The notes beneath the pieces are model-generated. The model had not been told where the DNA came from, made no database searches, and saw only the letters and a list, made by a program, of their open reading frames with translations. Shown in pieces: positions 8,628 to 16,286 of a stretch of 40,253 nucleotides of DNA (positions are counted from its first letter, which is position 1; every line of letters starts with the position of its first letter). The DNA comes from Syntrophomonadaceae bacterium. GTDB lineage: Bacteria > Bacillota > Syntrophomonadia > Syntrophomonadales > Syntrophothermaceae. The stretch spans positions 1-40,253 of the forward strand of contig JAAYAC010000057.1 of NCBI GenBank assembly GCA_012719535.1, given 5' to 3'. Made by a program: the position numbers and the translations under genes.

Positions 8628-9974
8628 TTAGCTTTTTCCTGTTTCTCCCCAAATTCTATCGGCTTTCTTGCCCCACTCGCTGGCGTAGCCTTCCAAGCTG
8701 CCGGCAAACTTTTCGGCATCAAGCGAAACCGTCTGGGTGCAGCGAGCCTCGCTCTCCTTGACGCAGGCTGCCAGCCCGTGCGGATTGTCTATAAGGGGGC
8801 AGGGACGCAGGTGATTCTCGTTGAACGGTTGCCGCTTTTGATAAGCCAGAAAAAGTGGATTACCGAGTGCTTCTTTTAAGCTCGTGTCCTTGATGTTGAC
8901 GCAAGAATAGTGGACAAAAGCACACGGCTCTACCTCGCCTGCCGCGTTGATGTGGAAATAGCGCCGTCCCCCCGCGATGCACCCGCCGGTGAGTTCCCCG
9001 TCGTTCCAGAAGTCGGCAACAAGGATAGGCTTGGTGGCCCTAATCTCTCGGATGCGCTTCCAGACGTACGCCCTCTGCTCAGGGGTAGCCATGAACTCCA
9101 AATCAGATTCAGAGCCTACCGGAACATAGGTGAAAAGCCATCCGAAACGGAAACCCTGGTCGACGAGCATGTCGATGTATTCGTCGGAGGTGATTTCTTC
9201 GACGTTGTGGCGGTGGTAAGTGGTTGAGAAGCCGTAAATGAGCCCATATTGGTGCAGGATATCGGCAGCCTGCATGACTTTGGCGAAAGTCCCTTTACCA
9301 CGGCGCATGTCGGTAGATTCCTCGAAACCGTCGATGCTGATTGCGAATACTATGTTGGCTGCGTCTGCGCATTCTTCGGCAAACTTTTCATCAATCAGAG
9401 TCCCGTTGGTGAAGATGTGGAAAACGCTGTCGGGATGTTTTTTAGCCAGCTTTAAAATGTCGTCTTTCCTGAGGAGCGGTTCGCCGCCGGAGAAGAGGTA
9501 GAAAAATATGCTGAGTTCCTCGCCTTCCTTTACTATTCGGTCCATTAGTTCAAAAGTGAGGTCGTTCTTCTTCGGGTATTCGCCCGCCCAGCAACCTTTG
9601 CAGCGTAGGTTGCAACGGTCGGTAGGATCCATGAGAATAGCCCACGGTACGGCATAACCCAGCTTTTCCGCTAATTCGTATTGTTTGGGGATGCCGAGCA
9701 GCACCGAGTTGATGATGAAATTGACGGCCAGACGTTCGCGGACTTTCGGATGGGTTTCTCTCAAAGTCCTGACAAACAGCTTGTACCAGTGAGAATCTCT
9801 GTTGGAAAGATGTTTACCGGCTGATGCAATCTGTTCTTTATGGTTTTGGCGTATAGCCAGCTTACTGGCGATATTTAGAAGTTTTTCAATGTTGTTTTCC
9901 GGGTCTTTGGCCAGGTAATTCGTCGCTTCCGTTATCACGGCTTCTCCGACCAATTTTTTGGCATACTCAAACAC
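8628..9974 (-). CDS. radical SAM protein with SPASM-like C-terminus
   Basis: 448 residues. The radical SAM cluster motif CNLRCKGC (Cys 121, 125, 128) is followed by FLFSGGEPLL, the SAM-binding GGEP element. The C-terminal part has further cysteines (GGCIAGG, EVEPCAFVHYSC, RPCPLID, ACVKESEARC), as in SPASM auxiliary Fe-S domains. About 100 helical residues precede the core. Such enzymes modify peptides or small molecules through a 5'-deoxyadenosyl radical; the substrate cannot be told. The start is a GTG (9972-9974) behind AAAGGAGTG. A winged-helix regulator gene lies upstream on the same strand, and mobile debris lies on both sides. Confidence 0.85.
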   Translation of the reverse strand: MFEYAKKLVGEAVITEATNYLAKDPENNIEKLLNIASKLAIRQNHKEQIASAGKHLSNRDSHWYKLFVRTLRETHPKVRERLAVNFIINSVLLGIPKQYELAEKLGYAVPWAILMDPTDRCNLRCKGCWAGEYPKKNDLTFELMDRIVKEGEELSIFFYLFSGGEPLLRKDDILKLAKKHPDSVFHIFTNGTLIDEKFAEECADAANIVFAISIDGFEESTDMRRGKGTFAKVMQAADILHQYGLIYGFSTTYHRHNVEEITSDEYIDMLVDQGFRFGWLFTYVPVGSESDLEFMATPEQRAYVWKRIREIRATKPILVADFWNDGELTGGCIAGGRRYFHINAAGEVEPCAFVHYSCVNIKDTSLKEALGNPLFLAYQKRQPFNENHLRPCPLIDNPHGLAACVKESEARCTQTVSLDAEKFAGSLEGYASEWGKKADRIWGETGKS

Positions 9975-9998
9975 TTGGGAGTCACTCCTTTCTTTCCG

Positions 9999-10064
9999 TT
10001 ATCGGTTTGGGATTGTGCTAACCGCACGTTGGAACCTAAAAGGCGAAAGAGAATTAGAAGACAA
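9999..10064 (-). CDS. possible 21-residue peptide before the radical SAM gene
   Basis: AGGAGGTGAGAAG precedes a TTG (10062-10064) and a 21-codon frame ending in TAA 25 bases before the radical SAM start. The peptide begins MSSNSLSPFRFQRAV. It lacks cysteine. It could be a leader peptide, a substrate of the enzyme, or a chance frame. The ribosome site is the only strong support. Confidence 0.25.
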   Translation of the reverse strand: MSSNSLSPFRFQRAVSTIPNR

Positions 10065-10449
10065 CTTCTCACCTCCTAATTCAGAAAAGTTTCACAACCT
10101 TTTGTACGCTGCTAAGCTCCAACTCCAGAAAATATTTAAATCCAGACAGAACAGTCACCGCAGTCCACTCTCATTGGTTTTGGCTAATCTGATGTGTTGT
10201 GTAGTCATAATGCCGGCGAGCAGATATTTTACGTTCATTGCAACAGTATTTACAAACTTATAAGGGATGGGTGAATAAACTCACCACTCCCCATATATTG
10301 CCGGTACTGAAACTGGCAGTGGATTCTCTTCTCTCCCCAAAATCCCCAAAATCATCTTAAAAAAATTAGTATCTTGCGCTTTCTTAGTATTCTTATGCTT
10401 CCCCAATATCAACATTATCCCCAACTTCCACAAATAACTCGCAAAAAAA
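10065..10449. other. AT-rich intergenic stretch between regulator and radical SAM gene
   Basis: Lower GC than the surroundings. No convincing coding frame, and no clear promoter or terminator was found. It presumably holds the promoter or leader of the radical SAM gene. Confidence 0.4.
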
Positions 10450-11148
10450 TTATGTCGTTTTTGCCAACATCTCACTCAAAAAGTCCATCAATAGCGCCTG
10501 TTCAGATCGGTTCAGTATTGCTAGATTTTTCTGGAACCCCGATAGGCAGTCAGCCATATGAGAAAGCAGTTGAACCTGGGAGGCTGTTTTCGCCATGCTG
10601 CCAATTGCAGCCCCAACAAACATGGCCAGCCCTATTTTCCCCTCGGATACTTCCAAAGCCACGTTTTTGAGCAGAGAAATGCTGGTTTTGCTCAGGGTTT
10701 GCAACTGCAATATCAAGATGGTGATTACATATGCGCAGAACACTAAGGGATTTTCCACGCCGGACAATTCAGTCCTCATTTGTTCCTCAAGTTCTCCCGG
10801 AGCGGTCTTGGTGGTTTTGTCGTAGAAGGACATTAATCTTTCTTTGAGCAACTGAAACTCCTTGACGGGTGCCATGTCTTCCAACGTTTTTCCCGACAGG
10901 ACCAGATTAACCAGTTGAGTAGGCGCAAACATTACCCGTGCCCGCCCAGGATACTTTTTCTCTTGATCAACCTCGTATTGGCTGGTCAAGAATCCTTTTC
11001 TTTCCAGCGTTTTCAGCATTTCATAAGCGCTCCATTTGCTTATTCCCAGCATTTCAGCCACGCGAGCGTAATGCACGGGCAGGTTGGTAGCTTCGTATAC
11101 CTGTTTGATGATTTGCAAGAAGTCCATTTGCCGCCTGGTAACAGCCAT
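10450..11148 (-). CDS. winged-helix transcriptional regulator
   Basis: 232 residues. Residues about 1-80 form a winged helix (VAEMLGISKWSAYEMLKTLERKGFL, then a basic wing YEVDQEKKYPGRARV). The C-terminal part is helical and rather hydrophobic (FCAYVITILILQLQTLS; GLAMFVGAAIGSMAKTAS), suggesting a dimer or ligand domain. It reads toward the radical SAM gene and may regulate it. Two palindromes over its own promoter indicate autoregulation. The exact family is not recognised. Confidence 0.75.
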   Translation of the reverse strand: MAVTRRQMDFLQIIKQVYEATNLPVHYARVAEMLGISKWSAYEMLKTLERKGFLTSQYEVDQEKKYPGRARVMFAPTQLVNLVLSGKTLEDMAPVKEFQLLKERLMSFYDKTTKTAPGELEEQMRTELSGVENPLVFCAYVITILILQLQTLSKTSISLLKNVALEVSEGKIGLAMFVGAAIGSMAKTASQVQLLSHMADCLSGFQKNLAILNRSEQALLMDFLSEMLAKTT

Positions 11149-11215
11149 TATAAACCTCCGATACAGGGAAACCGGTCGCTATAAATAAACCCCAATTTCC
11201 CCAAAATACCTTTGT

Positions 11216-11265
11216 CGTAAATATACGTCCTGTCAAACACGATTGTCAAGACGTAAAAAACGTCT
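11216..11265 (-). promoter_or_regulatory. promoter of the winged-helix regulator with two operator palindromes
   Basis: On the minus strand TTGACA (11249-11244), 18 bases and TATATT (11225-11220) form a good sigma-70 promoter. CGTA-AATA-TACG (11216-11227) covers the -10 box. AGACGT-AAAAA-ACGTCT (11249-11265) sits at the upstream edge of the -35 box. Both contain CGT/ACG arms around an A-rich centre, so one dimeric repressor could bind both sites. Confidence 0.65.
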
Positions 11266-11586: not shown

Positions 11587-12075
11587 GTGGCACGAAAGCT
11601 TAATCCCGAGCACGTAGAAGCAGTTATCAATCTGATAAACAGAGGTCCCTATTTTCAACTGCTTTCCATGGTAGTCCGCGATATCGGTCCCGGCTATTCA
11701 TCAGTAGAAGCCAACATGGAAGGAAAGCACCTCAATCCGTTCGGAGGTATTCACGGTGGCGTCTATTCTTCGCTGATCGACACTGCGGCCTACTGGGCAG
11801 TGTACTGCGAGCTGGATGAAAATGTAGGGTTAATCTCGCTCGATCTAAAAGTTGACAATTTGGCCCCAGTTAAAGAAGGGAAGCTTATTGTTAAGGGCCG
11901 CCGCATTAAAATCGGGAGGAACGTTTGCCTGGCCGAAGCAACGGTTACTAATGAAGAAGGGAAGCCGCTCGCCCACGGTACTTCCAAGCAAATGATAACC
12001 CGCGGCTTGCAAACCATAGAGCAAGCAGTAATCGCAATGGGCAGTAAACCCCTGCCTCCTAAGTTTATTGAGTGA
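11587..12075 (+). CDS. PaaI-type hotdog thioesterase
   Basis: 162 residues from a GTG behind AAAGGAGGTGATTTTTA. The fold is given by LNPFGGIHGGVYSSLIDTAA, the HGG(V/M)..L.D hotdog helix of the PaaI/YbgC-like acyl-CoA thioesterases, and by the strands SLDLKVDNLAPVKEGKLIV and ATVTNEEGKPLAHGTSKQM. It probably hydrolyses an acyl- or aryl-CoA; the substrate is unknown. It stands divergent from the regulator gene and just upstream of a transposase fragment. Confidence 0.85.
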   Translation: MARKLNPEHVEAVINLINRGPYFQLLSMVVRDIGPGYSSVEANMEGKHLNPFGGIHGGVYSSLIDTAAYWAVYCELDENVGLISLDLKVDNLAPVKEGKLIVKGRRIKIGRNVCLAEATVTNEEGKPLAHGTSKQMITRGLQTIEQAVIAMGSKPLPPKFIE

Positions 12076-14666: not shown

Positions 14667-15425
14667 TTACATGGGAGGCATTCCACCGCCCATATTGGGC
14701 ATGGGTTCTTCCTTAGGCACCTCGGTAATGAGAGCCTCCGTGGTAATCAGCATCCCGGCAATACTGGCGGCATTTTGCAGAGCCGACCTGGTTACCTTGA
14801 CCGGGTCAATAATCCCGGCTTCAATCATATCCTCGTAGTTGCCGGTTAGAGCATTGTAACCAACTCCCGCAGGCAGATCCTTCACTCTTTGCACCACTAC
14901 CGAACCTTCCATTCCTGCATTGTTGGCAATCTGCCGGAGTGGCTCCTCCAGGGCCCGCATGACCAACTTGACCCCGGTCGCCTCGTCACCCTCGGCATCC
15001 ACCGCTTCAATGGCCTTCTGTATGTTGATGAGGGCCGTTCCTCCGCCGGCTACGATGCCTTCCTCAACCGCGGCCTTGGTCGCAGCCAGGGCGTCCTCGA
15101 TGCGGTGCTTCTTCTCCTTGAGCTCGGTTTCGGTGGCGGCCCCAACCTGGATAACCGCTACTCCACCGGCCAGTTTCGCCAGCCTTTCCTGGAGTTTCTC
15201 CTTGTCATACTCGGACTTGCTTTCCTCAAGCTGTTTCTTGATCTGGGTAATGCGTTCCCGGATAGCGCTGTCACTACCCGCACCATCAATGATGATGGTC
15301 TCTTCCTTCTTGACCACTACCTGGCGTGCTTTGCCCAGCATATCCAGGGTAACGTTCTCCAGCTTAACACCAAGCTCCTCGGAAGCCACTTCTCCACCCG
15401 TCAGGATAGCAATGTCCTGGAGCAT
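14667..15425 (-). CDS. groEL: chaperonin GroEL, C-terminal half (after an in-frame TAG)
   Basis: 252 residues from the ATG at 15423-15425. It covers the rest of the apical domain and the second intermediate and equatorial segments ([36 protein letters not shown]), and ends with the GGM-type tail NMGGGMPPM. The 21 codons between the TAG (15489-15491) and this ATG are in frame and read as GroEL ([20 protein letters not shown]), so this is one gene broken by a nonsense codon. AAAGGAG stands 8 bases before the ATG, so separate translation is possible. In the linking stretch the conserved KAPGFGD reads KAPAFGE. Confidence 0.85.

Positions 15426-15488: not shown

Positions 15489-16286
<798 letters not shown>

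Follow-up and report, generated by a model that had tools for sequence, protein, structure and literature searches.

A gene for a radical S-adenosylmethionine (SAM) enzyme that follows the gene of a winged-helix regulator raises two questions: how the pair is switched and what the enzyme makes. The pair lies in 40,253 nucleotides of DNA from Syntrophomonadaceae bacterium (GenBank assembly GCA_012719535.1, contig JAAYAC010000057.1, positions 1 to 40,253 of the forward strand), and this whole stretch is called the window here. On balance, we read the locus from its sequence as the two-gene remnant of a small operon that would comprise a winged-helix autoregulator and a radical SAM enzyme that may act as an Mss-type lipid synthase; the part of this reading that joins regulator, enzyme and putative operator is held with high confidence. 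The operon is apparently mobile and made up of the autoregulator, a CmpB-HD membrane protein (decayed here) and the mostly solitary radical SAM enzyme. Genes were called throughout as longest open frames, and the two principal ones are as follows.

8628–9974, minus strand: radical SAM enzyme, 448 residues, GTG start
10450–11148, minus strand: winged-helix regulator, 232 residues, preceding the radical SAM gene

Regulator and enzyme across genomes

Judged by gene order, the regulator and the enzyme are conserved partners. Named genomes, when scanned, yielded at least 548 enzyme relatives. The best 80 were retained, and per-locus counts use 78 of these loci (L084 and L099, with no complete enzyme frame, were left out). 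Full-length regulator homologues (21–31% identical) directly adjoin the enzyme gene in 13 of the 78, among them loci of Caldanaerobacter subterraneus, Thermoanaerobacter, Ammonifex and Mahella, and none was found at any non-adjacent position in the 78 loci. Starting from the regulator, the 30 best-scoring of 93 listed matches in 398 genomes drawn from the phylum gave 27 new regulator loci; the enzyme is present in 21 of the 27 fetched stretches and in two more beyond a CmpB-HD gene. With five regulators at least 80% identical to those already aligned set aside, the enzyme is in the locus or operon of 18 of the remaining 22. No radical SAM relative was found at four regulator loci (L197, L208, L218 and L219). 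The neighbour scan covered L197 and L208, each with a lipid-type neighbour, and two regulator loci with no radical SAM relative in the stretches fetched adjoin genes for a patatin-like phospholipase and a FabH-type synthase (L240:4918-6120 and L241:2135-3250).

Other regulators occupy the same place elsewhere. With profiles seeded from the neighbours rather than Pfam row by row, a TetR gene stands at −1 or +1 of the enzyme in 25 of the 78 loci and an ArsR gene in eight, so that a winged-helix, TetR or ArsR regulator is directly adjacent in 46; all other called positions together hold only four TetR genes and one ArsR gene. A MerR gene lies beside the enzyme in one relative. The commonest clusters of −1/+1 neighbours are regulators (24, 13 and 9 loci), followed by LemA (five loci), and Pfam on the same-strand upstream genes gave TetR_N in 21/60 and HTH_5 in 4/60. 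On the enzyme tree (87 rows, 35 of them without a regulator label), the regulator type changes at least ten times among the 52 labelled rows, for which the least possible number is three and the shuffled mean 23.1; the slot has thus been repeatedly refilled. Four labels are indirect: L042 and L046 (ArsR) were assigned by size and place, L041 (MerR) by the matching copy L040 of the same genome and L044 (TetR) by matches of the C-terminal domain only.

Close relatives inflate these counts, and the 13 adjoining homologues are a minority of the named loci, as would be expected if the two genes met by chance or through shared ancestry alone. We consider such an explanation most improbable, given that the homologue takes no other position in those loci, that the enzyme accompanies most of the 22 further regulators and that the regulator type has switched so often on the tree.

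Direct repeats behind the regulator promoter

The sequence-only reading had called the regulator self-regulated and had seen two similar palindromes in its promoter. Partnership is borne out by the conserved adjacency and self-control is likely; the element concerned would be direct repeats after the promoter and not the palindromes.

11220–11249, minus strand: predicted regulator promoter (−35 box TTGACA at 11249–11244, 18-bp spacer, −10 box TATATT at 11225–11220; 11 of 12 consensus positions)
11190–11204, minus strand: putative operator 1, TTGGGGAAATTGGGG, just after the regulator promoter
10335–10349, minus strand: putative operator 2, TTGGGGATTTTGGGG, downstream of the regulator gene and preceding the cmpB-HD remnant and the radical SAM gene
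10401–10424, minus strand: two extra TTGGGG words 18 bp apart (5′ ends at 10424 and 10406), also in Syntrophothermus lipocalidus
11249–11265, minus strand: inverted repeat AGACGT-N5-ACGTCT with exact 6-bp arms and a 5-nt loop, beside the −35 box; not conserved

Many such loci have the direct repeat (TTTTGG-N2/3-TTTTGGG; here TTGGGG-N3-TTGGGG) just after the predicted promoter of their first gene, and in operator 1 the distance from the −10 box to TTTGGGG is 14 nt. The exact TTGGGG-N3-TTGGGG pattern occurs twice in the organism's own 2.49-Mb genome, both times here and on the coding strand of the operon, and the reversed-pattern control gave none. In S. lipocalidus, which belongs to the same family and has a 93% identical regulator homologue, operator 2 is exact and operator 1 has one mismatch, with three further exact matches elsewhere in the genome. 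Two genomes with more divergent regulators, G018 (57% identical) and G021 (49%), also have the pattern, at the regulator promoter in G018 and ahead of the next gene in G021, where a one-mismatch copy stands at the regulator's own promoter; each has one more exact match elsewhere. In many but not all of the more distant relatives the repeat takes the form TTTTGG(TT)TTTTGGG and lies about as far from the −10 box.

Of 17 regulators, nine have the looser pattern TTGG-N4/5-TTGG upstream, where dinucleotide shuffles give a mean of 0.43 and at most 3, and the antisense direction none. The pattern also precedes 7 of 13 enzymes beside such a regulator, compared with 2 of 65 enzymes without it. Its background is 0/31 for TetR genes, 0/9 for ArsR genes and 20/882 for called genes. 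The repeat was first spotted in some of these same loci, so that the 9/17 and 7/13 counts are not independent, and the 22 further regulators are the better test. Ten of them have the repeat in the regulator or enzyme leader, and 13 when sites just behind the regulator are included, counts for which no background was computed over exactly those windows. In a separate promoter scan of 22 leaders, the motif in 14 starts 12–17 nt after the −10 box of a sigma-70 promoter scoring 9–12 of 12 (the scan takes the best-scoring upstream promoter, and scores lean high), and this spacing holds whether the start codon is near or far.

Some observations weigh against a general role of the repeat. Nine of the 22 further regulators have no repeat in the DNA read, eight of the 22 leaders in the promoter scan lack the motif or have an unsuitable promoter spacing, and sites with two mismatches were not above the reversed control overall in four genomes, so that a wider regulon is not visible. 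This last point makes the system look like a dedicated local switch.

Residues 1–87 of the regulator match the winged helices of MntR, MarR and LexA (fold Z scores of 10.7 to 13.5 in the rows shown), a domain that it shares with repressors of these types, and the C-terminal part is all-helical, with no clear Pfam match at E 0.1. A sequence search of solved structures gave no convincing match for the regulator, and its Foldseek matches were winged helices of a generic kind, with no E value as low as 0.001; the C-terminal part was not folded alone. Unlike LexA, the regulator is without the C-terminal protease part, and the LexA model TIGR00498 covers residues 3–56 only (22 bits, against 111). 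It also differs from LexA, MntR and MarR repressors in that its putative operator is a direct and not an inverted repeat. With 80 of the 398 genomes of the phylum draw containing it, the regulator represents a widespread family with a probable cognate operator, not described in searchable papers.

The geometry suggests that the regulator binds the direct repeat on DNA. If transcription starts about 7 nt after the −10 box, as assumed here, operator 1 would occupy about +9 to +23 of the regulator's own transcript, and bound regulator would block transcription of itself and the enzyme; operator 2 would act likewise on the genes behind it. The helical C-terminal part may sense a ligand, probably lipid or membrane state, upon which the regulator would be released. 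The repeat might instead work as a leader-RNA element (UUUUGGUUUUUUGGG) that the regulator or another factor binds post-transcriptionally. It does follow the promoter in the 14 leaders mentioned, it keeps the sense direction (antisense occurrences: 0/17 regulators, 0/27 regulators and 1/17 enzyme leaders) and it overlaps the ribosome site in some loci. The winged helix of the regulator is, however, like those of the DNA binders MntR, MarR and LexA, and the repeat is tightly spaced from the −10 box and loosely from the start codon, which suits a roadblock on DNA; we regard action through RNA as improbable.

As to the palindromes, both are present in the window: the exact inverted repeat beside the −35 box, and a second over the −10 box that reads CGTA-N4-TACG by eye, with an imperfect 13-nt inverted pair (85%) at 11224–11255. 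Both are absent from the same promoter in S. lipocalidus, and they were rejected as operator. The TTGGGG direct repeats had been overlooked by the sequence-only reading, as had the gene remnant described next.

A lost cmpB-HD gene and the neighbours

10166–10287, minus strand: remnant of a cmpB-HD gene (first bases at about 10287–10277, middle piece at 10282–10205, end of the HD frame at 10204–10166), matched in locus L243

Between operator 2 and the enzyme gene, the DNA is a patchwork from one region of L243 (genome G096). It comprises the cmpB leader and first bases up to 10277, then the middle piece, the HD-frame end and, from 10164 onwards, the enzyme leader; about 400, 670 and 110 bases are missing between the pieces. 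When translated, the remnant pieces match the HD frame with 59% identity over 22 residues and 80% over 10. The operon order in L243 and in L242 (genome G100) is regulator, repeat, CmpB and HD frames, radical SAM gene, and the remains in the intergenic gap here thus point to an ancestral order of regulator, cmpB-HD and radical SAM gene. In G018 and G021 the gene after the regulator encodes CmpB-HD (by Pfam for the G021 copy; the G018 copy is similar by eye), and no full-length radical SAM relative was found in these two genomes. CmpB-HD is a single frame in G021 and G018 and two overlapping frames, divided at the same place, in L243 (4615-5022 and 5001-5807) and L242 (3315-3722 and 2632-3330, minus strand). 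The split falls at a TTGGGG/TTGGGGG run and could be a frameshift mutation or a programmed shift.

The operon has probably moved between families. The enzyme is about equally close to that of G096 (94% identical) and that of S. lipocalidus (95%), whereas a 264-residue part of GroEL is 79% identical to G096 and 91% to S. lipocalidus, a difference that points to transfer. This part of GroEL served as the yardstick of relatedness, glutamine synthetase being unsuitable owing to paralogues. In the window groEL is split into two separate frames (14667–15425 and 15489–16283, minus strand), which looks like the effect of a frameshift or of misassembly.

The organism's own genome has an intact second copy of the enzyme gene (G000:C12:1055-2386) with a 72% identical product; the two frames scanned upstream of it showed no recognisable regulator. 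The counterpart of this copy in S. lipocalidus is a 264-codon fragment (G001:C1:2131882-2132664).

11587–12075, plus strand: hotdog-fold thioesterase (TIGR00369), transcribed away from the regulator and the enzyme

With this gene, all three genes of the sequence-only reading are found with the orientations that it gave them. The same reading had counted the thioesterase as a member of the set and had suggested a neighbourhood analysis, in which the regulator recurs and the thioesterase does not. Among the called genes of the 80 loci it has a single match (34% over 116 residues), S. lipocalidus aside, in which some 2.8 kb separate it from the regulator; it was rejected as a partner and is listed as a neighbour. 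As to the proposed small modification pathway, regulators dominate the −1/+1 positions, LemA comes next and CmpB-HD stands between regulator and enzyme in two relatives.

The reaction of the enzyme

The enzyme matches the Pfam radical SAM family (PF04055, E 1.9e-23) and, barely over the cut-off, SPASM (PF13186, E 7e-5). Exactly six cysteines are invariant in the alignment (87 of 89 sequences; L105 and L125 were left out). Three of them (C121, C125 and C128) form the CxxxCxxC motif of the radical SAM core in all 87 members, which places the enzyme in the superfamily. The other three (C332, C351 and C392; C-x13-G-x4-C plus one more, with spacing from the window sequence) are in the tail and, by the family rule, would hold a single auxiliary cluster of the twitch kind. 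The SPASM domain has a seven-cysteine tail for two auxiliary clusters, so that the SPASM-like tail of the sequence-only reading holds as a PF13186 match and falls short of a full SPASM domain, the invariant tail cysteines being three. The structure prediction has a mean pLDDT (predicted local distance difference test) of 92.6 and a pTM (predicted template-modelling score) of 0.92, and its N-terminal domain (residues 1–105) is nearly all helix. Fold matches are of a general radical SAM kind, with Z scores of 26.5 for SkfB (291 residues aligned, r.m.s.d. 3.5), 25.9 for SuiB, 24.9 for anSME, 22.6 for a viperin-like protein and 18.3 for GDGT-MAS (248 aligned, r.m.s.d. 3.5); ChlB is also among the best. 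None of the 25 NCBIfam models shown, out of 67, is near its cut-off, and the top scores, of 84 to 85 bits where the cut-offs are 500, belong to the models for NirJ2 and heme b synthase.

These matches bring up a maturase of ribosomally synthesized and post-translationally modified peptides (RiPPs), with a precursor nearby and a regulator that controls the peptide system. The candidate precursor is the possible small peptide of the sequence-only reading.

9999–10064, minus strand: 21-codon frame with a TTG start behind ATTAGGAGGTGAG; not conserved, judged not a gene

The best folds (SkfB, SuiB, anSME and ChlB), several maturases among the NCBIfam scores and the good ribosome site of the frame all favour such an enzyme. 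The core and part of the tail are indeed like those of the radical SAM/SPASM and twitch enzymes SkfB, SuiB, anSME and viperin; the enzyme here differs in its three tail cysteines, not seven, and in having no conserved precursor peptide. Against a maturase also stand the NCBIfam scores, far below the cut-offs, and the predicted all-helical N-terminal domain. The frame exists with its ribosome site, but its TTG start is lost in S. lipocalidus (TTA) and, by eye, in L243 and L242, and it falls within the enzyme leader matched in L243. Small frames with a ribosome-site word occur ahead of the enzyme in 26 of 81 loci (34 frames; 39 in 30 of 81 before five with a faulty site window were dropped), and the 300 nt upstream of the 81 enzymes gave no common small peptide. 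Only two pairs of close relatives share a frame, both over the end of the upstream regulator gene; the search for precursors covered these upstream regions and no other part of the loci. The 21-codon frame was therefore rejected as a peptide precursor, and we consider a RiPP maturase unlikely. A ribosome-site-like word, AGGTGAGAA, at 10066–10074 (minus strand), about 95 nt before the enzyme gene, is kept in the window, L037, L242 and L243; a start codon follows it in the window only and is absent at that place in three of the four genomes.

Of 41 genomes searched, 10 contain full-length relatives of the enzyme (E below 1e-130), and the organism's own is one of them. The best 80 of the at least 548 relatives come mainly from anaerobic Bacillota (genera such as Moorella, Caldanaerobacter, Thermoanaerobacter, Tepidanaerobacter, Caloramator and Thermosediminibacter), and also from Spirochaetes, Synergistales and others. 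No relative was found in a viral contig collection. Relatives with 33–35% identity are carried on plasmids of Escherichia albertii, Klebsiella pneumoniae and the archaeon Methanosphaera (L162:2254-3633, L163:12010-13311 and L164:7848-8933); in Methanosphaera the gene comes immediately after a TetR gene. When 5,426 E. coli genomes were searched by megablast, the E. albertii copy found no match, a search that did not extend to more distant E. coli copies.

A mostly solitary enzyme that has a switch, is found in varied lineages, shows no conserved precursor peptide and has membrane and lipid links suggests a substrate common to all cells, with membrane fatty acyl chains as the likeliest candidate, and the tail-to-tail joining of fatty acyl chains is a known radical SAM reaction that fits this distribution. 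The lipid or membrane neighbours, found in places, are CmpB-HD and the patatin and FabH genes beside two regulators. Mss, the synthase to which we liken the enzyme, is presumably a radical SAM enzyme. In PMC13274423 it is compared with Tes and is predicted to use a SAM cofactor, and the criterion for it is more than 30% identity to the reference Mss with E no higher than 1e-30; it is reported there in Moorella thermoacetica, Caldanaerobacter subterraneus, T. wiegelii and members of Tepidimicrobiaceae and Syntrophomonadaceae. Table 1 of that paper gives seven strains with iso-diabolic acid, and for five of them the species (M. thermoacetica and C. subterraneus), genus (Thermoanaerobacter) or family (Thermosediminibacteraceae and Tepidimicrobiaceae) is represented among our best 80 relatives, below which the other two may fall. 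In one Tepidimicrobium metagenome-assembled genome the member of the enzyme family is the only SPASM match. The likeness to Mss (PMC13274423, PMC11868695 and PMC11604127) is thus one of radical SAM kind and of overlapping species and groups; one difference is that no regulator of mss appears among the papers listed, which likewise include none on diabolic acid with Syntrophomonas. With distribution and neighbours as its basis, the assignment of the enzyme to the Mss-type synthases of membrane-spanning lipids (diabolic acid) comes close to an even call without quite reaching it, and its action on membrane fatty acyl chains as such a synthase is the step of the proposed mechanism of which we are less sure.

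Several points speak against the lipid assignment. The fold is nearer to the peptide maturases, SkfB above all, than to the tetraether synthase GDGT-MAS. The archaeal Tes/GDGT-MAS (7tol and 7tom) is alike in the radical SAM core; its sequence match is confined to the core (E 3.6e-7, profile 114–220), and peptide maturases match better. In the organism's own genome and in S. lipocalidus, PF09989 was found only in frames of 337–470 residues and no fused PlsA/Ger-like frame was seen, unlike in G021, which has one of 1,438 residues. We know of no membrane-spanning fatty acids in Escherichia albertii, Klebsiella or Methanosphaera, the hosts of the plasmid-borne relatives. In 2010 the lipids of S. 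lipocalidus had yet to be reported, according to the available part of PMC3035303.

The plasmid hosts also count for an enzyme that makes or modifies a cofactor or another small molecule rather than lipids, with a regulator that senses the product, as does the spread of the family across phyla. The NirJ2 and heme b synthase models, best among the NCBIfam scores, also favour it, but at their 84 to 85 bits they fit mainly the shared core. No plain cofactor pathway appeared among the neighbour clusters scanned, which were not all of them, a point qualified by a ThiI/aminotransferase-V pair that recurs upstream in nine loci. A cofactor or small-molecule enzyme seems to us less likely than not.

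For the lipid-synthase reading, the consequence lies in regulation. According to the available part of PMC13274423, which names no regulator, temperature and oxygen affect the making of bacterial membrane-spanning lipids differently from strain to strain. If the enzyme is of the Mss type, the local regulators would be direct candidates for this control. We propose, tentatively and from sequence comparison, that the regulator family with its head-to-tail TTTTGG operator may be a dedicated switch of bacterial membrane-spanning lipid synthesis, in a slot that TetR, ArsR and MerR regulators have refilled. If true, the refilled slot would explain species-specific responses of membrane-spanning lipids to temperature and oxygen; bacterial lipids of this kind underlie the climate proxies based on branched glycerol dialkyl glycerol tetraethers (brGDGTs). 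Whatever the product of the enzyme, a regulator family present in about a fifth of the genomes drawn (80/398) is defined together with its probable operator.

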